DNA of 64,000 nt from Lytechinus variegatus (taxonomy: Eukaryota; Echinodermata; Echinoidea; Temnopleuroida; Toxopneustidae): NCBI RefSeq assembly GCF_018143015.1, contig NC_054746.1, positions 39,372,687 to 39,436,686 of the forward strand, read 5' to 3'. This document shows positions 11,701 through 51,115 of this stretch, piece after piece (the first letter of the stretch is position 1; each line of letters opens with the position of its first letter). The position numbers and the translations under genes were made by a program. Under the pieces are notes generated by a model, which did not search any database, was not told where the DNA came from, and saw only the letters and a program-made list of their open reading frames with translations.

Positions 11701-14700
11701 CATTAGAAAAACCTAGAAAATGGATCTTGTATTCCTAATGATGCTAATCCAGCTGATGTTTGCAGTCTCTTCAAATACTTCTTCCACAACCTCCCCGAGC
11801 CACTTATATCATCTAAACTCCAGAGTGCCTTCTACAAGTGCTCACTGATTGAAGACATTGCAGAGCAGCGATGGGTCCTCCTCAACATCTGCCATCTCTT
11901 GCCATCACTCAATGTTCAGACCCTGCGCTTCACTGCATTCTTCCTGCACCGTGTTGCTTCCAAGTCAGAGAAAAACCGCATGGATGTAACCAACCTTGCC
12001 AAGGTGTTCACACCCAGCTTATTTGGGTCATTTACAGCTCTTGATAAGAAGAACCCAGAGAAAATGATTGGATTACAGACAAGTATGGTTAGTTTAATGA
12101 TTGAGAATGCTAGGCTGATTGGTGAGGTGCCTGACTGGATGATGGAGAAGATCACAGGACATAACCAATCCAGAGAGAATCTGGATCGTCTTACATCAGA
12201 AGATGAGCTTGAAAAGAGTGATGATAATCTAGAAGAGAGTGGGAGATTGTCCAGACGACGCAGAAAGAGTGGACCATCATTCCAAGGTATATCATATATA
12301 CGCTCTTTGTGAAAGTGATTTGTAGTTTGTAGACAAAAATACTCCAAAGTATGTAAAAATACTCCAAAGTTCTGAAAAATAAAAACTATGGGTAGAGCTT
12401 CAGCATGATGTCAAATAGCTCACAGCAAATGGGGAAAATAGAATATCACTCTTTTCACCATAAAATTTTTATTCCACAGTGAAAAGTAATATATGCTAGT
12501 CAGTGTAATTTGGTATTAAAAACAATGAAAAGTAATTGATAAGTGAAATAAAAATGTTTTTCTCACTATGTGATGCTTTTATAAAGAGCTGTATAGGTCC
12601 AAATTAGTCATGGACTATAATGAATGCTTGCCATGAAAGTGAGTAATGTTTGTCCATTATTACTGGCTTTTAACCCTAAACAGGCCGGGGGGGTTGAATC
12701 AACTCCCCCTCAACATTTTCTGCGATAATTCCGCCTTGCGAAATTTTTTGACCGCGCCACTCACAGACTTTATACTTTTAAGTCTCGCGCTTCTTTTGAG
12801 ACCAAATTTACGACGCCCGGGTACACGCTTTTGAAATTACGCAACATTTGGTAGGTGCATGTCAGACCAAAAATTGTCCCAAAACGTGATTTTCTGTACA
12901 AAGTCAATGCAAATTGAGTTTTCTCATCTTATTCATAAAGATGTGATTATTTTTACTTTAAACAGCTGAAATCAATTGATTTTAGCATAATTATGCTTCA
13001 AAAAGATTGTGCAATAAATCTGGTCAAAAAACAAAGAAAAACAAAAGGTTGAAAAACAAAGAAATACATAAGAAATTCATAAAACAATAAAATACCTAAG
13101 TAATTGATTTCCAAACCGAAGTTTTTTTGCGATTGCGATTGTTAACAATGCTACAAAGTATATTTTTACCAAAAATTAGCATTTTAGGAGCTTTATTTAG
13201 TGAATTAGAGCAAAAAGTATGATTTATGTATAAATTAGCATAATTAATTCATATAAAATAGAATCTCATTATTTTGGAAAATTTTACCATATAGCCTTGT
13301 AGATTACATTGCACACTATCAGCGTGCAGATTTTTGTGGCGGCATTGAATCAACTCCCCCCCCTGGCCACAAAAAAGCCCGGCCTAGTTAGGGTTAATTA
13401 TCTATGATCTATCAAGATATCAAAATCAGTTGAGTAATAATATTCAAGTTATTCAGTTAGTGGATTTAGGATTTGTTTCCAGGCCTAGTGAGCATCTTAT
13501 TATGCATGTATTAATTCCCTCTTTTTTCAACATTTTGAATTTTGGCTGCACTATCTCAGATTGAAACAGATCACTTCTGAAAGGCTGTTAACATAACCCT
13601 CCTAATTTTTTTTACCATATTCCTTATTTTGTGGTTCCATGTAAGGGTATATGGTAGAAAGATGAAGAAAGAATGCTAAAAAGAAAGATGTAGTTAATCT
13701 TGTGTACCAGAACATGTTACAGTTCACTCCTAATGTGTAACTTATTCATGATATTATTCATTCTATTTCAAAGTACTTGTGAGTGGTCTTGGACACAGTT
13801 TAGGTATTCTGAAAACAGCATCATCAACAGAGAACATCTTATCAACAGATACACATGCAAGTGAGTATACACTTCAGCTGTTTGACCTCTTGGAAGTTGC
13901 CATATTTTGTTTTGAAAAGGTGAGGATATATATACAGCAATCATTGAAAAAAAAAGATCTAGCATTTGAAATGATACTCCATATCCCAGCAAGTTTTGAA
14001 AGTCTTCACATTAAAACAGTCAACACTGTCAGAGATAATCAGCCTGAGTATGAATGGATAGTTCTGCATTTGGTATACTTTCACTTGGTACAATGAAATG
14101 TTTATTTTATCCAATATAGCTAACATTTTATTTTAGAATTTTTGTAGCCCCTCCTAGTTGAACGTCTTGAATGTGGACCAGTGAATTTTAGCTAAATAAG
14201 GAAGCCAATCTGAAAACCGAGTGGTTTTAAACCAAGCATGCATAACAATTTATTGAGTTAACGGTATTCTAAATTTGTTCTTATTTTAGCGGAGTCTCCA
14301 AAGATAATGAAGCGAAAAGCCAGTGAGGACCTGGGAAGTGCATTTACTTCTACTAAAAGGTAACTTTCACAGTTCAGCTTTGCCTTCAAATGTTTGTCTC
14401 ACACTAAATGCTTGTACTATGTTCCATAATTGATAATCATGTTGTTTACAATTATTGTCCATCAATTTGTAGATGTACAAGATATCTTGCTACAGGAAAA
14501 ATTAAATTGAATCACAAATGGTATACATGTATGAAAGACCAATAATACGATATCTTAGTTCTCTCTCTCTTTAAAATTCTACTTCAATTTGTTAATTGTA
14601 TTTCTCATTCATTTTGCTTTATTGCCTTACTTTAAAGGAAAGCTTTTTGCAAAGGTGAAACCATCAAACAAAACAGGAAATGAAATCACATATTTTCTTT

Positions 14701-38500: not shown

Positions 38501-41500
38501 AAGAATGAGAATAGTTTGTGGAAAGTATAAAATTTGAGGATATCAATATATAATTTTGTATTTAAAAACATAGTGTATCAATTTTGTGAAAAAATGAAAA
38601 TTCCCAAAATTCCCGGCAGCTGAAAATTCCTGAAACTTTCCATGGAAATTTTCCAAAATTTCCGGAAAGTTTCCAGCCCTTTGCAACCCTAGGACTCCAT
38701 GATGTTTTTAAAAATATTTTGACATAAATACTTCTTCATCATGGAGTCTTGACACTCTTCCCATAGATGCAGAAGAGACTGACCAAAACAAAGAAGGATT
38801 TTCCTAGGAAATCCGTCTTTTAAGGTAAAAAATCAAGTAAATAGTGGTGATTTTATTCAATTTTACACCTTCCTACGCCTAATGCGTAAGAAGTTTTCAA
38901 AAATTGGTTAATAAAAATGTTAAAATTGAAGGTTTCTTACCAGACTGATCTCATGTAGATCCCTCGATCCGTTTGTCAACAAAGCAAATACAATTGGTCT
39001 GACCCTTGAACCACTTCATTATGACGTAGCTACAATTAGTGATGTTACAAAATGCTATTTTGAAGAACAATTTATAGATAAATTATTATTTAACAAATAC
39101 TAAATTTTAATACGTGATTACATGAATAATTAATCAATTTTCTACTTTCTTAAACAAGGTTCACAGTTCAAGTTTCCCTGGAAATTATGTTGGAAGTGAT
39201 GATTCTTGGAGCATGGACAAATTTACCAAGGTATGTATTTCATACTCAAACCAATGAGATGTGACTTTAAATTGTATGTACCTTGTATTTAAAAAAGTTA
39301 TATAACCCCTATATACACTAAAACATACAAGATATTCAGTGGAGCAGGTAGCATTTTGTTTGAACTAGAAATCTGTACAGAACAGTTTCACTTGAAAGGA
39401 AAACTAAAACAGTTTAAGGGAAACATGGTCTCTATTCAACATGTCTTCACAGCAGGTTTGAGTGTAAGTCTACTTTGTCTAATAATGAAATCTTTGCCAA
39501 AAAATGTGATACATTCTCCAACTGCCACAATCTTCATCTGTTTCATTCTATATTAAACATAAAACATATTTGTAATTTTTGTTTGTTTTGTTTTGAAAAT
39601 AGAACTTTCGTATCGATGTGATTAGGCTGACTAAAACTGAGCTAGAGTTTGACATGGTAGGAGTAGACCCAGCAGTAGCTAATGCATTTAGGAGGATTCT
39701 GCTTGCAGAGGTAGGTACAGCAAATTCACCCATTTTTAATAGTTTATAAAGCAGCAGGACAGTGATATAATGAAGACAGTTGAATCATGTGTTTAAAAAC
39801 TAGTGAAGACCAAGGGTCTTTACAGTAGGACTTAAGAACTTTTCTTCAAAGATGATATCTTTTTTGATATCGATTTCTTTGCACAAATGAGTAGGGTTAA
39901 GTAAGAAAATGGATCATTTAATGAAAAAATAAGGGAATTGTATATCTCAATTAAATAATATATCTTTTGTAATTATATTTTATTTTTGATTTCATAATAT
40001 GCAGGTCATCAATGCAAATTTAACGATTAAGTTTTTTTTTTTTAACTCCCTTAAATCTTGATCAGGTACCAACAATGGCAGTTGAGAAAGTCTTTATATT
40101 TAATAATACATCCATCATACAAGATGAAGTTCTCGCTCATAGATTAGGACTTATTCCTATCAAGGCTGATCCAAGAATATTTGAATACAGACAGGAAGGT
40201 AATATTGAAAACAAGTGCATGTAATTGTTAATCCGAGATCTCTTCTCTTTTGGGAGGAAGTGAGGGGGCGGGCAATTTATACTTTTGCAATTTCTTTTTC
40301 ATTTTCTTAGTTATTTACCAGGTTTTAAGAAAAAAGAAATCCCCTGGGTATTCTATTTATCATTCAAGTTATTTTTTCAGGTGGTTTAAACTTCATTCAT
40401 CTAAACACATACAAACCTTCAATGTCCAAATACAATAAAAGACAAAGATAGTTTCAAATATTTTGTTGAAGGCATTAACAATTGATAGAATTTGAACTTT
40501 TATTCTAGGTAATAGTGCTAGTCAGTGATTTTTATTAAACAGTTGACAATATCATAGCTAAAGAGAAAATAAGATCTATAGAAAGCAGTGTACATCCATG
40601 TATGAGAATAAAACTAAAAAAACAAGATAGGAATTACAAACAGTGTGAAGAAGTAATTCTATAGAGAAAATCACCTTTGGCACCCATATATTCCTTGCTT
40701 AAAAAGGGGTAATATTTTGTCCACATTTGTGAAGCGATCATGGTCTTGAAGAAATGTATAATTCTTGGAAAGAAGAAAGATGAAATGCAAGTGTGACAGC
40801 CATAATACATCTCTGCAAAATTTGTGTTGATCTGAGATTTTATGGTTAGATCTAAAAAGCCTAGTCCTAAAAAATCTAGGTTGAAATGAGGTTAAAAGAA
40901 GTAGTTCACAATAGAAGGGTTGGGGAAGGAAATGAAAGGGGTTGCAAGATATTGGACACAAGACGTAGGCTACAACCTGATCTTTGTTTGACCTAAGGAA
41001 TAAGCCTATTAGTAGTTGGAAAACACAAGGAATACAAATCTGAGGACCATTTCAAAGAGAACCATGGTAACATTGCCGTAATGTCAACTACCACGGTAAC
41101 AAGGAGGATTCTAGCCTAAGTGGCTTTCTCTACCTAGTAGGCCACTCCTAATGCTCTATAAAAATGTGAATTTTCAATGTAGGTGATGAAACAGGAAGTG
41201 AAGAAGACACCATAGAATTCCAACTGAAAGTGAAATGTACAAAAAATCCAAATGCTTCTAAAGATGCTACTGATCCCGATGAACTCTATAAAAATTCCAA
41301 AGGTTAGTAGTTTCTCATCATTTATAATAGCAATCTTCTCGTAACAATATAAGAATGATGATGATGGTGATATCAATGGTTGTCAATTATGGCAATGCTC
41401 ATGGTGGGAAATAATGTTGATATATACCTATACAAAGTTTTTATGCAAGGTCCAGGATATTGCCAGAGGTGCAGTTGATTATATGATGACTTCAAAGCAC

Positions 41501-44500
41501 ATGTAAGATGTGAGATATACAAGAGGGAATACAAATATGTTTCATCTTCATGTCTTTCATGACATATTTCAGACAAAGCCGTGCCTATTATCATTCTATA
41601 GAAAACCCAATAATGTACGAGATGTATGTAATATTAGGTGTATGTGTTTCAGGTGATTGTTGGCAAGGATTTTCATTAATTCCACAATCTCTCCCCAACT
41701 TTGTCTATTAAACATGAATGTTTACAAGATGAAAATCACAAAATAGCAAACATGCTGGCTAGGCTATTGACTTTTTGATATGTCATATTTTCAAGTGTTT
41801 TTCATCAAAGTATCAAAAGAAATTTCTTTTCATATTTTACAGTAACAACTGAACATTTCAAGTGGAATCCTATAGGAAGCCAAGAGCAAACAGTAAGCTT
41901 TAATTCTTTTCATGATTTTGTTATTTATTCTCAAGTACTATGTAAGAGATTAATGAGGTAATATATTTGATTTCCAAGCATTCTATGAAAACCCTACAAC
42001 AGTCTTCTCTATGTCTGTTGTGTCGTATAATGAATGCTAGAGAAAAGAATGAATACATTCACTGTGGATATCCAATGTGACATGTCTATTACAATGATGT
42101 GACACAATTTCACCCCATGGACATTGACTATTTTCAGGTTAGCAATAGTGTTTCAGTGTACCTCTTTTCTGTCATTTTTGTTTATAAATATGTACAATCA
42201 ATTTGCCTTTCCAAGTCTAAACATTCTACCCTTATTTTGTTGAAAAACAAATTCAAAGGAAGATTATTTCATATTCTAATAAGTGAAGTAAAACGTTCAG
42301 TTTATTATAACTCTGAGACATCAAAATGCCCATGTTACAGCAAATTGTTGTGAAGTATGTCCAGTAGGATATAAGATGTATGGTTGAATGTCCTTAATAG
42401 AACCAAGAGCAGGATTTGGGGGAATGATCTTGGATTTTTTCCACTTTTGTTTTAGTACTTAAACTGCAGTTTAGTTCAAAGGTAAATGCCAGTTGTGGTA
42501 ACGATATCAAAGTGAGTTTGTACAGAATCCAATGAAATGACCACCAAAGTGTCTGTATAAATAAAGAATATGTGCCAAAGGATTCTGGAAGAAATTGTGT
42601 AATTGCTGAGAAATCAGCAAATAAACACAGGATGCAGATCAAGCGTCGGGCCGACATTCAAAGCGATAATAATACACTGTCCCACATGCATTTATCTGTG
42701 TTGTTGATCTTCAGTGTGAACATTTTTCAGCGTAGATTTCAAGATTTCACAAAGTTCAGTTTATGTAACTGTACCAGATCTAGATCCTCGATGATATACT
42801 GAAATTAATCCTGGTTTACAGACTTTCTCATGAAAACCGGTTTTTACTGCAACTACTGGCATTTCCTTTTAACTAATTCCTTTGCATAAGATTTTGGCAA
42901 CTCTAATATGCTCTGAATTTCTTGTTAAGCATGGACCTAAAGCGTTTGCACCAGTTGACAAGGATATCTTGATAGCAAAGCTGAGACCAGGCCAGGAGAT
43001 TGATCTTAAAATGCATTGTGTGAAAGGAGTTGGTAAAGATCATGCAAAGTTCTCTCCAGTAGGTCAGTTCACCTTTCACATTGCTTACTGTACTTATTTA
43101 AAATACAATTAATTAGGGTTCATTCAGACACAATAAATATTAGTAAGAAAGCTCAGCAACATTTTGTGTACAAAGTCAATGGGATATGAGTGTCTAGATC
43201 ATTTATTTCTCTCTGTTCTAAAGGAATTCTCTATTTTTGTCTTCCCTACATATCAAAGCGAGACTATAGGCGCCATTTTTCTGACAGCTGCGGAGTTGTC
43301 AACAGTGAAATCTTAACCAAGGCTTTGAAATGTCATAACCTAAAAAGTATATGGACCTAGTTCATGAAACTTGTGTGCAAAATTATCCCTTATTTTCAGC
43401 CAGAGGTTGTGAGTTCTACTTACTGAGAATAGGACATATTGTTTCTCTGTAACAAATAATATAATCCATTCCTATCAAAGATTCATGATATTTCTCTGTG
43501 ATATTACAATTATTTAACCCTAAATAGACGGCTATTTCGACGCCTAAGAATACCCCTTATGATCTCGGCTGACGATCGCACAATCGCGACGAAAATTGGC
43601 ACACGCGTTACCCATGGCATTATCTACAAAACTATAACATCAAATTTTGCAAAAAATCTCATGTCTCATTAATTATGCTAATTTATGCTTAAAATCATAA
43701 GTTTGCTCTAATTAATAAAATAATGCCCCTGAAATGCTAATTTTTGTTTCATATACTCTAGATAGGCATCTGATCAGATTCATCTAAAAAAAATTTCAAC
43801 ATCACATTTATTTTCTTATACTTGTATTCTATTGTTTTTTAATATTCTTATGTATTTCTTTGTTTTTTATTGTTTTTTTCAATGGAAATTGTCGGGGACT
43901 TTATTGTTACTATAAAAACGATAAAATTAATTGATTTTAAGCAGTAAAAGGAAAAATAATGATACATTTATGAATTTTGGCTAAAAACACTATTTGCATT
44001 GGATTTGTACACAAATTCACGTTTTTTAGTAATTTGGGGTCTGCATGCACTTACAAAATGTTGCGTAATTTCGGAACTGCATACCTGGGGTCACAATTTT
44101 GGTCTCAAAAGTTGCGTGAGACTTGAAAGTAAAAAGTCAGCGAGCGACGCGATGAAAAAAAAATGCGCGGCGGATTTATCGCGAAAAAATCAGCCCCCCC
44201 CCAGTCTTTTTAGGGTTAAAACAAGTTTCATTCTAATTAATTTCAATTGTTTAGAAATCCCAAATTCATCAATTTTGTTACAGACCTTATAACCAATAGC
44301 CATTGGACAAGGCCCTGAGTCTGCTCATTTTATGTTTTTATTATACGCTGATCGACTGACCAAGGTCTAGGGGATGAGTTGGGTTTTAGTTTTGGGTAAG
44401 GCTTTGTTCTGTCAAACAAAGGTACTGTTATAGTCATGCAGTCGTGGCTTTATACAGCTAAACAACGAAACTTGACCTAATTTTTCTGTTTAAAAGAACT

Positions 44501-47500
44501 CTTCCTCATCAGTATTATTCAGAATGCCCTTATTATTTGGAACTATCCCTTTTGTTTCTCTTTGTGCCGTGCAGCAACTGCCTCATACCGTCTTATGCCT
44601 GAGATCAAATTGACCGAGAATATCATAGGAGAGAGGGCAAAGAAACTTCAACAGTGTTTTTCTCCTGGAGTTATTGAGGTAGAGAAAAGAAATGGTAAGA
44701 AGAGAATAGAAATGTTTAACAAAATATTGGCATATATTTTACTTGAGATTTACCTGGGGGTCATTTCCTAAAGCTATGCATGTCTAGATGAAATATTGGT
44801 GACCATTTCTATGCTTTTAGTATATTTTGGGGGAGAATCTTATATAAGCCTAATCAAATTTAGAAAAATATGCAATTTTCCATTCAGAATACTAATCTTA
44901 CTCTCCAGCTTCAAAAGGAAATGGTAATTAAAGTTTCAGCACTACCAAACAACCCCCCCCCCCCCTTTTCAATAAACATTGCTAGCTTATATAAAAAATA
45001 ACATTGTTTTTTGTTGTTGTTTTTTTTTTTTTTTTTACTTCATTTATCAATTAGATTGGGTTAGCATGATGACATCTGGGAATGGTTGAATACCAAAATA
45101 TGCATAACAAACCAGAGCTAATTTGAAATCATTGTTAAGCAAGATATACAATTTTAAAATGTATTGAATCAAATGTTCATTAAGAGGTTAATATGATGTT
45201 ATTACAGGTGTTCCTGTAGCAGTAGTAGCTTGTCCAAGGAAAGATACGTGTAGTAGAGAAGTCTTCTCACATGATGTAAGTATATAGCCTGCCCACAAAC
45301 AGGAAAATGTACATCTTTTACCAAGTGTTTTCATATCACTGTAAAATTGTACCTTATCCCATGTTGAACTATGAATCCTGTTTTGTTGAAAAAGGCACCA
45401 TTGTAGATTTATTTTGAGTAGTAATATGCGTGATTGGTATGTTCCTCTATAAAGTGAGGTGGTAAATGAGACAATTTTTTTGTGCATGATAAATATAAAT
45501 TGATACATTGATTCTTAATAAATATAAAAACATCAGGGTACCATAACACAAATGTTAGCGATTAATCGTACTCTTGATTTTCATGATCGATTGTACATTG
45601 TAGTCAATGGAGTCAATCAGAAAAATGTGTCTACGATCATTGCTAAGCTTTGTGTTACGGGCCCCAGACCACATTTTGGCACTTAATATTCCAGTCATTT
45701 GTAAAGAAATGTGTAATGTTACAAACAGCTTTTTGACATATTCACCACTCTGTGTACTATACCAAGGCAACTGGGCAAGTATATTCTAATCATAAAGTAA
45801 TGCATTCTATGAAAACCCCACAACAGTCTTCTCTATATCTGTTGTGTCGTATAATGAATGCTAGAGAAATGAATGAATACATTCACTGTGGATATCCAAT
45901 GTGACATGTCTTTCACAATGATTTGACACAATTTCACCCCATGAACACTGGCTATTTTTACAAATTTGATTCATAACTGTTGAGTGAATATTTAAATAGT
46001 ATTTAGTTGTTGATAAAAATTTCCCTATATTCCTCCAGTTAGTTTTATGTGTGATCAGATTGTGTGCTTCTTGCAGACGTGATGAAGTGAGAATCTCTCT
46101 CTTCTCTCATTTACATTGTGTCTTATAGTCTAGTTAAGTATTAACATCCATATATGGTATTAATTGAAAGCTTGTTTAATATATACTTGCACATTTAGTG
46201 CATTTAAAAAATATTTTGGTTGTTAGTTTATTTCACAGTAATTTAAGATTTGAATTATTTTCAACCATTTCTTGCTTCACATATTTTCAATTTCATTTCC
46301 TCAATTTAGGACCTCAAAGATTGTGTGAAGTTGAATAGAATTCGGGATCACTTCATATGTAAGTATTGCATTATTTTGATGTGTTTAAAAATGATTTTTG
46401 AAGTTAGTGAGTAGGATAGAATAAACCTTTACAAGTTTTATTGATCAAGAACTAAGAATAATTGTAATGGACAAGGGGAAAAGGGGTACCTTTTGAAAGT
46501 ATTTGAATAATCATTCTCAATTTTAAAAAACATGATTTTAGTGAAGACTTTTATATCAAACGCATGGTAATGTTGCAACTAGTTAGAAGAGAGAAAATAA
46601 AAAAATTTAAGGGCTTCAATCAACTACATAGCATTCTATGAAAACCCCACAACAGTTTTCTCTATGTCTGTTGTGTCGTATAATGAATGCTAGAGAAAGA
46701 ATGAATACATTCACTGTGGATATCCAATGTGACATGTCTATTACAATGATGTGACACAATTTCACCCCATGAACATTGACCAAGTCTGTTTCAGTGTATG
46801 TCTTTCTATATTTTATATCTATACTAATGTTTTCCATGTATTGTTACTCTATAGTCATTTTAATTTTCTCTGCCTAGTTTACTCATTTTAATTTGTAAAT
46901 TAACTTATAAATATGTCTTTGTTGTCTCATGTTTCTGTGCATTATGACATTAAGTTACATTTAGAAATATTTGAGTTGTTCATGAATATAACTTTTATGA
47001 GGAATTTTGTAATGTCTACACTTTCAGTCCTCAAGTTTCCTCATGTACAACATAATTGGTGATAGTGATGGCTACTGTTAAATGTGCAAATTTTGTCATC
47101 GAACCTTCCTTACGCCCCTGTTCCAGCGTGCATATCTTGCTACGATTTAGCAAACCTGCAAATTACACAGGATCTGGGAAAAAGAAATTATCAGTGGGAG
47201 AAAGTGCTTTAAAAAGAATGGGTGTCGTAGCTCAAGCTAAAGCTGGGGTAATAATAGTTGCGCTTTATACAGTATCAGGCAAAAAGCGCTGAATAGGTCC
47301 ATCTATTATTATTAGGAAGGTCAGTATGGAATTTGGAATATTTCAGAACAGAATTTCATGGTGATCTTCCTGATGTGCATAAATTCCTGCTGTCACCCAG
47401 TCCTCACAGTGTTGTTTCTAGACTGCTCCCAATTTCAACCGATTACTAAATTTACTATTCCACCCTCCAAATTGTTGTGGAATGGTCCCTTTGATACTCT

Positions 47501-47681
47501 TTCAAGTTGAATGTAGTAACCGGATGGGTATTGGTGTCTCTTATTTTGTATTTCAGTCTCTGTGGAGTCAACAGGAGCTCTTCTCCCTGATGAACTGGTC
47601 TCTGAGGCTATCAAGATTCTGAGAGCTAAGTGCAAGACATTCCAACAAGACCTTGATATGCTGAGTAATCAAGATACATGA
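35583..47681 (+). CDS. POLR1C: DNA-directed RNA polymerases I and III subunit RPAC1 (eleven exons, complete)
   Basis: Alpha-like subunit (AC40) that pairs with POLR1D in Pol I and Pol III; nuclear, for rRNA, 5S and tRNA synthesis. Exons: 35583-35648, 39159-39230, 39603-39710, 40066-40198, 41183-41302, 41843-41892, 42930-43062, 44575-44694, 45208-45275, 46310-46358, 47557-47681. All phases close and give 347 residues (human 346). Diagnostic blocks: [32 protein letters not shown] (alpha-motif dimerisation), [50 protein letters not shown] and [20 protein letters not shown]. The start is the ATG beginning [13 protein letters not shown], 22 codons before the first donor, as in orthologues. Introns 6, 9 and 10 each carry an H/ACA-like RNA. 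Intron 1 (3.5 kb) holds nested mobile elements. Confidence 0.97.
35700..36498. repeat. Family A foldback fragment interrupted by another element
   Basis: The right end of family A (TTTCTCTATTGATTCAGATC, then GAGGTGGACTTGACC and TTTAAC) is present but split at 35835/36482 by a 646-bp insertion. The left arm is missing or unrecognisable. In POLR1C intron 1. Confidence 0.55.
35836..36481. mobile_element. hAT-like MITE with 8-bp target duplication
   Basis: Termini GGCAATCCTGTATTTTAGGG and its complement (inverted arms of at least 100 bp, including ACGTACG-containing stretches). Flanked by ACTTGACC at 35828-35835 and 36482-36489, an exact 8-bp duplication. 646 bp, no transposase. The 8-bp duplication suggests hAT; terminal CAG ends are not seen, so the superfamily is inferred. 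Confidence 0.7.
37158..38259. mobile_element. Nested foldback: outer element with inner palindrome
   Basis: Outer ends AGTCTGTAGGCACAGACCC (37158-37176) and GGGTCTGTGCGTGCAGACT (38241-38259). Inside lies a second pair, GCAGACCTTCA (37262) and TGAAGGTCTGC (38006), followed inward by GAGGAGCGCGATCGCG and its mirror, and a core palindrome of about 185-bp arms (37375-37745, for example TGAAATGGCCTTCTTTTTTC). POLR1C intron 1. Confidence 0.65.
38581..38700. repeat. Degenerate GGAAATTTTCC-type repeat
   Basis: Short run of AAAATTCCC, GGAAATTTTCC and TTTCCGGAAAGTTTCC variants, locally self-complementary. No function assigned. Confidence 0.4.
41978..42126 (+). ncRNA. Candidate intronic H/ACA snoRNA, copy 1 (POLR1C intron 6)
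   Basis: A 149-nt sequence nearly identical to two others in this gene. Hairpin 1: GCATTC pairs with GAATGC and ACAACAG with CTGTTGT, leaving an internal loop on both sides as in a pseudouridylation pocket. The hinge AGAGAA fits ANANNA (H box). A second segment can fold (GTGACAT with ATGT-GA-CAC). ACA lies three nucleotides before homology with the other copies stops. No ORF. Processing from the host intron is the family's usual route. The second hairpin is weaker than the first. Confidence 0.6.
43255..43380 (-). repeat. Diverged end of the 29-31 kb tandem element
   Basis: On the minus strand it reads ATGAACTAGGTCCATATACT, GGTTATGACATTTCAAAG, GGTTAAGATTTCACTGTTGA and GGCGCCTATAGTCTCGC, the same order as the right end of the tandem element (about 30588-30715). 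In POLR1C intron 7. Confidence 0.55.
43514..44219. mobile_element. piggyBac-like MITE (TTAA-flanked), copy 2
   Basis: TTAA on both sides (43514-43517 and 44216-44219), CCCTAAATAG at one end and TTTTTAGGG at the other, about 0.7 kb. Shares with copy 1, in opposite orientation, a TTGCGTAATTTC...TTGGTCTCAAAAG...GCGAGAC-type segment. In POLR1C intron 7. Confidence 0.6.
45802..45950 (+). ncRNA. Candidate intronic H/ACA snoRNA, copy 2 (POLR1C intron 9)
   Basis: Second copy, 149 nt. Differences from the other copies fall in the hairpin-1 terminal loop, just after the H box and in hairpin 2; hairpin-1 stems and the AGAGAA hinge are unchanged. It ends in ACA plus CTG. It is the most diverged copy in the 3' half (TTTCACAATGATTTG), so hairpin 2 may be less stable. 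Confidence 0.55.
46631..46778 (+). ncRNA. Candidate intronic H/ACA snoRNA, copy 3 (POLR1C intron 10)
   Basis: Third copy, 148 nt, in the sense orientation of POLR1C like the others. Same GCATTC/GAATGC and ACAACAG/CTGTTGT stems, same AGAGAA hinge, and an ACATTG end. Flanking intron sequence is unrelated to that around the other copies, so the conserved unit is the RNA-like block itself. Confidence 0.6.
47180..47325 (+). repeat. Possible SINE/LINE 3' tail
   Basis: GCTGGGGTAATAATAGTTGC, then GCGCTTTATACAG, an AAAAAGCGCT and a short (ATT)n tail near 47305. Looks like the tail of a retroposed element; head not found. Low confidence. Confidence 0.25.
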
Positions 47682-48303: not shown

Positions 48304-48909
48304 TTTAAAGGAAAAGTCCACCCCAACAAAAACTTGATTTGAATAAAAAGAGCAAAATTCAACAAGCATAACACTGAAAATTTCATCAAAATCGGATGTA
48401 AAATTAGAAAGTAATGGTATTTTAAAGTTTTGCTTCATTTCACAAAACGGTTATATGCACATCTTGGTCGGTATGAAATGAGGAACAAATGACATCACTC
48501 ACTATTTCTTTTGTATTGTATTATATGAAATATGAAATATTTTTATTTTCTCGTCATTGTCATGTGAAATGAAGTTTCATTTCTCCCTGAACACGTGTAA
48601 TTCCTTTATTTTAACATTTTGTGCTTCAGGCAAGGAGGTCCTAATCGTCAAATTCGTAAAAATTGGAATATTGTATAATTCAAACAATAAAAAACAAAAG
48701 AAATAGTGAGTTAGTGACATCATCAACTCTCTCCTTTGGATGTAACTGGCTCGTTCATATAACTATTTTGTTAAAAATAAGTGAAACATTGAAATGTCAT
48801 AACTTTCTTATTTTACATCCGATTTTGATGAAATTTTCAGCATTGTGCTTGTCTGATTTTTCTCTATTGATTCAAATCAACATTTTTCTGAGGTGGACTT
48901 GACCTTTAA
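48304..48909. repeat. Foldback element, family A copy 3
   Basis: Ends TTTTAAAGGAAAAGTCCACC and GAGGTGGACTTGACCTTTAA. Mirrored arms include TTTCATCAAAATCGGATGTA against TACATCCGATTTTGATGAAA. Downstream of POLR1C. Confidence 0.75.
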
Positions 48910-51115
48910 ATGAATCATGATTTGTTCAACACATTACTTTGTATGATTTGACATAAATGTAAATAATTCCGATCATGCAAAGAAAATGTATTTTAGGACA
49001 TAGTCAGAAATGTTTTAATGATTACATTATTTAATGTTTATCTTTCAAAGTAAGGAAGATTCAATAAATCATCAACACATCTGTTGATTTTCAAATATTA
49101 CGTTGTGTAATGATTCTTAATCTGAATGTATGCATTGCTATGTTACTTTCATTGCATATTAAAGTCATTTTAAAAACAATTCTCATTAATTTTTTTATTA
49201 ATGAAGTTTTGAAGAAAAGCTGGCTGACATATTGAACACGGAGCAAAACGGGTGGAAGTTTATGATATAAAAAAAACTCTTCCTCTAATTTTACAGGTAA
49301 TAACATTTAATGGAGTTGGTATTTGAAATTTGAGATTTTATACATAAAAGCAAGATTGAGAATATTGGAAAGGTAAGTGGTCTGGAACTAAATTTATGCA
49401 AGACTACCAATGAATGGGCCAGGTTACCAAATAATGTCGGGTCAAATCGTTAATTTTTCCTGATGTCTTACAAATTGGAAATGAATTTTCCTCAACCTAT
49501 TTAAACTTTGACAATTGATTTTGCAGTGAATGCTTGTTAACAGGAATTTAAATCTTTAAAGATCATATTTCAAATTTTGTGATGTGAAATAACATGTAAA
49601 ATAATTTCATTTTAGCACTAGAATATGTTCCATTCAATTGGAAATTCATGTGCAAGTATGAAACAAGGTGGGTGCCGTAACATGAAGGTTTGCATTAATC
49701 ACTAATGACATTGACCATTCAAGTTAATTGTTGCGTGTGCACTTTGTTCATTGACCAGGAACCAATCAGAATGGTTTATTCATTGCAAACTTTTGTTACC
49801 AAGCCCAACTTTGAAGTACGAGGGGCATGGGACTGAAAGGTTGGATTGGAAGCAGCGATGTCAGGGCTATGATCAAAGGTGATTTAGGGGGGAATTGGAG
49901 TAAGTAACATCTTTCTGGTTAGATTTTGTAAATGGGCTGTTTGCCATTAATTTCCTTTGAACATATTCAGGGTGGTGTCTCATAAGGCTGTCTGCAAGTT
50001 ATGTATGACTGGTGACCTATTCCTATACTATATCCCTCAAAAAAATTCTGCAACTCAAAAAGTTTGAGCGGTACTAAATTCATTAGTAAGCCGTCATATG
50101 GAAAGCATGAATATTCCTCTGGCTCTTTACAATCACAATCGTATCGTCATTTGTAATGCTAATGTTATCATGGAATGCGCAAACTTGATAAATATCTAAT
50201 CCAATTGCAGCAATGTCAAAAATTGAAATGCTGCAAAATTTGTACTTTCCAATAGCAAATTTCCAATTGTTTTGAGGATGGACCAAGTTTGAATGATGTT
50301 GATGAATTGATACCTGAAAATATAAACATTGTGTATTCTCATTTGTGCAATGGATTGAATGTGTTTGGAATAATGTTGAACCTTGTCATGTCACAAAGTT
50401 TTAGGTTTTTTAATTTTAAAAAAGAGATTAGTTTCATTGTTACTGAATTTTTATGGAAGCTTTCACTCCAAGCAAATCATTCACTGACGCCCATCTGCAT
50501 GGTCAAATTTCTATAGAAAACGATGCATTTTGCAACATTCCACTTCTGACTTTTCCATAGATATGTAGGGTAACTGCACAATTCCATGATAACATAATCA
50601 CAGCAGATGGCACATCATTGTAAAGAGGAATAATTAAGCTTTTAAATGATACCAGTTCCATCTTCTGTACCTCAGTAACAAAAAATATTTATTTATTATA
50701 TATCATCTCCCTTGATACTTTATAATCAAATATTGATAACAAATCTGGTCAGCAACAAGAATTTTAATCTACAGATTTCAAGTTTTGCTATTGAATGGGA
50801 ATTAAAACGAGAATATGATTTGGCACCAAAGAACAGGTCATCAGTCACCAATAATTTTATAACAGTTTTATGAAACCCAATCTTGGTCTGTTTAGAGGAA
50901 GTAAGATGTTGCACTGAATGAAGAAGGGTGTTTTGGTTTTTAAGCTAGTTTATCCAACACCAGTATTAGTCCAAGAGGTTACATTTGCTTCTGCGGCATT
51001 GCTCCTCTGCTTATTTTTTTGATGATTAAGGTTGGGGGATTGAGGTTTGAAACTTGGCTTTTGTTTGGCTTCATGCATGATTTTTTTATGAGAGTAATTG
51101 TCGCACAAGCAGATG
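48910..51115. other. No gene seen
   Basis: AT-rich sequence with only short chance ORFs, no splice-linked coding similarity and no clear repeat. It may include a distal POLR1C 3' UTR (AATAAA near 49062). Confidence 0.4.

Follow-up and report, generated by a model that had tools for sequence, protein, structure and literature searches.

Three intronic copies of a candidate SNORA14-type H/ACA guide RNA in the POLR1C gene of Lytechinus variegatus

What kind of element would recur three times, nearly unchanged, in the introns of a single gene? The question arises in a 64,000-nucleotide (nt) stretch of the Lytechinus variegatus genome (assembly GCF_018143015.1, contig NC_054746.1, positions 39,372,687 to 39,436,686 of the forward strand; hereafter the window, whose own numbering is used throughout), where blocks of 148-149 nt begin at 41978, 45802 and 46631, all in the sense orientation of POLR1C (RPAC1). 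A first-pass annotation of the window, made from the letters alone, had described these blocks as H/ACA small nucleolar RNAs (snoRNAs) carrying a guide pocket in their first hairpin. In our analysis, each block is very probably an intronic H/ACA guide of the SNORA14 type for U966 of 18S ribosomal RNA (rRNA), triplicated inside POLR1C.

Near-identical blocks in three introns of one host gene

The host gene was identified from the joined exon translations, of which query residues 1-296 align with 7a6h_C, an RPAC1 chain (E = 3.1e-123). The alignment of the copies agrees with the positions, lengths and orientation given for the blocks in the first-pass annotation. The copies occupy three different POLR1C introns bounded by GT..AG, one copy in each (exon edges by eye). 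Their earlier placement in introns 6, 9 and 10 holds as regards three separate introns, and the numbering itself fits if two coding exons precede approximately 39.60 kb. One more POLR1C exon probably lies upstream of 39603: a likely candidate coding exon was seen by eye near 39.16-39.23 kb, a second one not having been sought.

The pairwise comparisons of the copies gave 141, 145 and 142 identities over 149 columns (94.6-97.3%), close to the likeness of about 95% first reported, and the only gap in their alignment is a single base that follows the H box. This likeness is further illustrated by a 32-nt core found at three sites of the window and in none of 100 shuffles. Searching the 869.6-Mb assembly at the DNA level with the full element, its 5' half and its 3' half returned exactly three places each time, all of them in POLR1C; the search skips very common words, and it recovered the copies and nothing else. 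The flanks, previously called unrelated, are so for the most part, except that CTATTTT directly past the element is common to copies 1 and 2 and that copies 1 and 3 show a weak 3'-flank likeness (score 52, equalled by 2% of 500 simple shuffles, in one of six flank comparisons; in the remaining five, 14.6% or more of the shuffles were as good). No poly-A tail was visible by eye after any of the three copies. Given these shared 3' flanks and the lack of a visible tail, local DNA duplication is the more likely origin of the copies than retroposition.

Hairpins, boxes and the predicted 18S target

Every copy permits the two-hairpin plan of an H/ACA RNA, with a single U-U in copy 2. Hairpin 1 combines the lower stem GCAUUC/GAAUGC with an 8-pair upper stem in all three copies, and hairpin 2 has a 5-pair lower stem below an upper stem whose 4+6 pairs are separated by an A-A; across the 34 named pairs, 101 of 102 cells are standard, the exception being that U-U. 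Minimum-energy folding recovers the canonical hairpin 2, pocket open, in copies 1 and 3. The hinge AGAGAA (ANANNA) and the ACA placed 3 nt from the end, both described in the first-pass annotation, are present in each copy, where the end is the one drawn in that annotation and the homology between copies extends a few bases further. In H/ACA RNAs, the box follows the pocket by 14-16 nt, and the distances here lie within this range in all three copies (16 nt for the H box and 14 nt for ACA). An extra to the H/ACA plan is the mini-hairpin GAAUGAAUACAUUC, which follows the H box and forms 5 pairs. Nine of the 149 columns vary among the copies, with copy-specific bases at columns 18, 36, 111 and 122, and none of these nine falls in the 67 positions that make up the guide arms, the would-be arms of hairpin 1, the boxes and the lower stems (hypergeometric P = 0.0038, for a set of positions picked with the structure and the differences already in view). 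The differences had been said to spare both hairpin-1 stems; column 18 does fall in one of them, changing C-G to U-G with the pairing kept.

The predicted guide arms are those of hairpin 2, whose upper stem is adjoined by AUAUCCAA on the left and AUUUCACC on the right. When these arms are set against SSU_F24, AGAGGTGAAATTCTTGGATC, which excerpts of a nematode and fungal study give as an 18S primer (PMC3202548), they form 8+6 Watson-Crick pairs with none missing and leave U-C in the pocket, so that 14 pairs surround a U-N in the conserved 18S stretch GGUGAAAU-U-C-UUGGAU. Against a bird 18S primer, in the part of PMC3547695 that was available, the arms form 8+5 pairs; the form GGUGAAAUUCUUGGAU corresponds to the 8+6 pairing and the UUGGAC form to the 8+5 pairing. 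Fungal 18S sequences contain the same stretch (PMC3550802, in excerpt), and TGAAATTCTTGGA occurs in 52 papers of the openly licensed literature, among them PMC3202548, PMC3547695 and PMC3550802.

This pairing was further examined by random trials in which shuffled arms were placed against 7.5 kb of random sequence with nine registers allowed: none of 400 trials reached 14 pairs (best 13), and 400 further trials that allowed G-U pairs gave the same result. The genome contains 21 matches to a pattern that joins the guide arms with ACA, compared with 7 for the reversed pattern, and at least four contiguous upper-stem pairs adjoin the arms only at the three POLR1C places, the other 18 having 0-2. 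The U of GGUGAAAU-U-C-UUGGA is, we take it, human 18S U966, a placement that agrees with the arms UCCAA and AUUUCA of the Rfam SNORA14 consensus. Hairpin 2 is accordingly well supported as the predicted guide hairpin for the counterpart of U966 in human 18S, and the guide that the first-pass annotation had assigned to hairpin 1 has its arms in hairpin 2 instead.

Hairpin 1 itself is probably structural. The arms proposed there, AAAACCCC and GTCGTATAAT, pair with each other (UAUGA/UCGUA) in the minimum-energy folds of all three copies, closing the two-sided pocket that had been described, although in copies 2 and 3 the centroid folds leave this would-be pocket open. Once closed, hairpin 1 leaves a left-side bulge, AAACCC/AACCC, and where the copies have UAUGA/UCGUA, the SNORA14 structure of Rfam shows the helix CUCA/UGAG, with the same left-side AACCC bulge (by eye). 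A guide in hairpin 1 was not favoured, given that the arms pair in the minimum-energy folds and that the Rfam model also pairs there (28S rRNA and small nuclear RNAs were not searched).

Likeness to SNORA14 and competing explanations

Two human snoRNAs are known for this target. Excerpts of the source papers describe SNORA14A as lying in intron 1 of POR, with the H box ATAGAA, and as a reported guide of 18S U966 (PMC9886955), and SNORA14B as hosted by TOMM20 with 18S U966, in helix 23, as its target (PMC7072173). Like SNORA14A and SNORA14B (ACA14a/b), the L. variegatus elements have a two-hairpin plan and hairpin-2 arms with UCCAA and AUUUCA, and they share with the Rfam consensus the hairpin-1 stem GCAUUC/GAAUGC, the left-side AACCC and the H box region CUAnAGAAA. 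Unlike the human genes, they are hosted by POLR1C rather than POR or TOMM20, with three copies in that single host; they also differ from SNORA14 in the mini-hairpin that follows the H box, and this mini-hairpin coincides with a gap of 13, 13 and 12 nt in copies 1, 2 and 3 relative to the consensus. The left arm ends in AUCCAA here and in GUCCAA in the consensus, which fit 18S UUGGAU (SSU_F24) and UUGGAC (the bird primer), respectively.

These likenesses are complemented by profile searches. A cmscan of a 5-kb region returned SNORA14 (RF00397) as the best family for all three copies (27.0, 25.8 and 25.0 bits). Scanning half-elements, with one copy per half, placed SNORA14 second of the three matches listed for the 5' half of copy 1 (14.9 bits, after SNORA35 at 15.2; another match of the same clan was omitted) and as the sole match for the 3' half of copy 3 (13.5 bits); the 5'-half match is independent of the match to the target. 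In a sequence-only alignment to the SNORA14 consensus, 1, 0 and 1 of 2000 shuffles were as good as copies 1, 2 and 3. The H/ACA reading of the first-pass annotation thus draws support from the two hairpins, the boxes and their spacing, the 18S register, the best Rfam family and the lack of a repeat family.

A number of results weigh against the SNORA14 assignment or against a guide RNA altogether. The 25.0-27.0 bits fall short of the 36 bits that Rfam sets as gathering score for SNORA14, and it is for this reason that the elements are SNORA14-type by architecture and target and not formal members of RF00397. When all 64 kb of the window are scanned, the copies have E-values of 0.66-1.9, and a match to SNORA69, unrelated and located elsewhere, reaches 30 bits, so the SNORA14 score alone proves little. 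The 3'-half match consists largely of the guide arms and is thus not independent of the target match, while the full-length Rfam alignment begins 22 nt inside the element and misplaces the 5' hairpin, which we attribute to the insertion of 12-13 nt that follows the H box. Three non-copy tiles among 5108 window tiles outscore every copy on the SNORA14 consensus, and the sequence-only alignment is not decisive. An RF00397 search of the genome, in which 41 of 59373 candidates were scored, returned nothing at E <= 10; because it missed even the copies in the window, this search carries no information for or against the assignment. The sense-strand fold z-scores are modest (-2.31, -1.75 and -1.52 for copies 1, 2 and 3, with -0.33, -0.95 and -0.83 on the opposite strand), copy 2 lacks a canonical minimum-energy fold and has lost one pair, and in the centroid fold of copy 3 hairpin 2 is reduced to its upper stem, the lower stem being absent. 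Covariation is absent, with no two-sided pair change among the three copies and observed values reached by 500 of 500 shuffle controls.

The species' own 18S was also not found in the assembly by pattern searches. The 18S pattern GTGAAATTCTTGGA has four places there, whose loci (12056 bases) gave no Rfam match at gathering score; two further 18S patterns had no match in the assembly, a 5.8S family search of it found none among the 39 of 24250 candidates scored, and neither an 18S pattern in genome contigs nor a similar pattern in viral contigs was detected. The ribosomal DNA array seems to have been left out of the assembly.

Four other explanations were weighed against this evidence. It is possible, though on balance unlikely, that one copy works and that the other two are non-expressed, decaying duplicates that arose by local DNA duplication or retroposition: copy 2 has lost an upper-stem pair along with its canonical minimum-energy fold, and the homology ends near the RNA ends, but no copy departs from the others in its guide arms, boxes or lower stems, inspection by eye shows none of them followed by a poly-A tail, and the 3' flanks shared by copies 1 and 2, and weakly by copies 1 and 3, suggest DNA duplication. 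We regard as improbable that the blocks are real H/ACA guides for the U966 position that do not descend from a SNORA14 ancestor, their arms having arisen independently or moved onto another backbone. The Rfam score below the cut-off, the extra mini-hairpin and a likeness that resides largely in guide arms dictated by the target speak for such a history. Against it, hairpin 1 has no such target, yet SNORA14 is the second of three matches listed when hairpin 1 of copy 1 is scanned by itself; this hairpin shares GCAUUC/GAAUGC, (A)AACCC on the left side and, at the H box, CUAnAGAAA.

Chance hairpins without any RNA function would account for z-scores of -1.5 to -2.3 that are not extreme and for the missing covariation, yet they would leave to coincidence the agreement of the guide arms and their register with the spacing of the boxes and the tail, along with a stem found in only three copies among the 21 genome pattern matches, and we consider this very improbable. 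A miniature inverted-repeat transposable element (MITE), or another transposon whose ends pair by chance, would be a repeated, intronic block with sharp borders; genome-wide copies of a MITE had been raised in the first-pass annotation as the case against a snoRNA, and what was found with whole, 5'-half and 3'-half queries is three places in 870 Mb, all in POLR1C and all in the same orientation. This copy number led to the rejection of this last explanation, to which next to no probability attaches. The triplicated SNORA14-type guide is the reading that we retain.

The locus, a proposed mechanism and its meaning

The features on which this reading rests are collected below.

Table 1. Window coordinates of the host gene, the three copies and their parts
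Feature	Coordinates	Strand	Remark
POLR1C (RPAC1), part	39603-47681	+	From exon with FRIDVIRL to C-terminal exon; ends approximate, by eye
Copy 1, SNORA14-like H/ACA snoRNA (candidate)	41978-42126	+	POLR1C intron ~41893-42929
Copy 2, SNORA14-like H/ACA snoRNA (candidate)	45802-45950	+	POLR1C intron ~45276-46309; one hairpin-2 upper-stem pair lost (U-U)
Copy 3, SNORA14-like H/ACA snoRNA (candidate)	46631-46778	+	POLR1C intron 46359 to ~47.56 kb
H box AGAGAA	Copy 1, 42039-42044; copy 2, 45863-45868; copy 3, 46692-46697	+	16 nt after hairpin-1 upper stem
Mini-hairpin GAATGAATACATTC, 14 nt	Copy 1, 42047-42060; copy 2, 45871-45884; copy 3, 46699-46712	+	Lies between H box and hairpin 2
Left guide arm AUAUCCAA, hairpin 2	Copy 1, 42068-42075; copy 2, 45892-45899; copy 3, 46720-46727	+	
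Right guide arm AUUUCACC, hairpin 2	Copy 1, 42107-42114; copy 2, 45931-45938; copy 3, 46759-46766	+	
ACA box	Copy 1, 42121-42123; copy 2, 45945-45947; copy 3, 46773-46775	+	14 nt after right-arm start

Other features were observed in the window. A further POLR1C intron holds an element of approximately 700 bp (43513-44220) with 17-nt terminal inverted repeats, TTTAACCCTAAATAGAC and GTCTTTTTAGGGTTAAA, that are 94% complementary, and this element has the appearance of a transposon or MITE. A long inverted repeat (48304-48910) lies beyond the 3'-most POLR1C exon seen; its arms are 144 nt long at 80%, and another pair of 53 nt at 81% is nested in it. The SNORA69 match lies at 14438-14519 and covers 82 nt of a 132-position model (30 bits against a cut-off of 47); it was taken as chance, as were the other sub-threshold matches in the window, to MIR851, mir-74, MIR1507 and GlsR7.

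By analogy with vertebrate biogenesis, debranching and trimming of the spliced-out POLR1C intron would yield an RNA of 148-149 nt shielded by H/ACA proteins. Hairpin 2 of this RNA would then hold 18S rRNA by its 8+6 pairs, with the equivalent of U966 in helix 23 exposed in the pocket and presumably converted to pseudouridine. The three copies very probably came from duplication within the gene with the same guide kept. Intron processing, protein binding, pseudouridylation at the U966 position and descent from SNORA14 are all steps that we infer.

The guide type is already known from human SNORA14, and intragenic duplication of snoRNAs is well known: in the portion of PMC2653536 that was available, it is named as a main driving force for chicken snoRNA paralogues. 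Like those cis-duplicated paralogues, the present copies are near-identical and sit in different introns of one host, while the snoRNA and the host are others (PMC2653536, same portion). What appears to be new here is POLR1C as a host, the triplication and the 14-nt mini-hairpin after the H box. Within the openly licensed literature, no paper joining SNORA14 and POLR1C was found, and the available text of papers on snoRNAs and POLR1C presents the latter as a disease gene or a list entry, never as a snoRNA host.

A bolder and improbable extension is that, in this lineage, the U966 guide is made only from, and triplicated in, a gene for a subunit shared by RNA polymerases I and III, so that the amount of guide would follow the rRNA-making machinery and partial U966 modification could report POLR1C transcription; the mini-hairpin might have been added in this lineage and serve a separate function.

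If the SNORA14-type reading is true, it predicts that POLR1C introns yield a 149-nt RNA and that the U966 position is a pseudouridine. It would also imply that distant members of the family escape the Rfam SNORA14 model. A human guide studied in cancer would, moreover, be present in an animal outside the vertebrates, where the host has changed and the guide has been kept.

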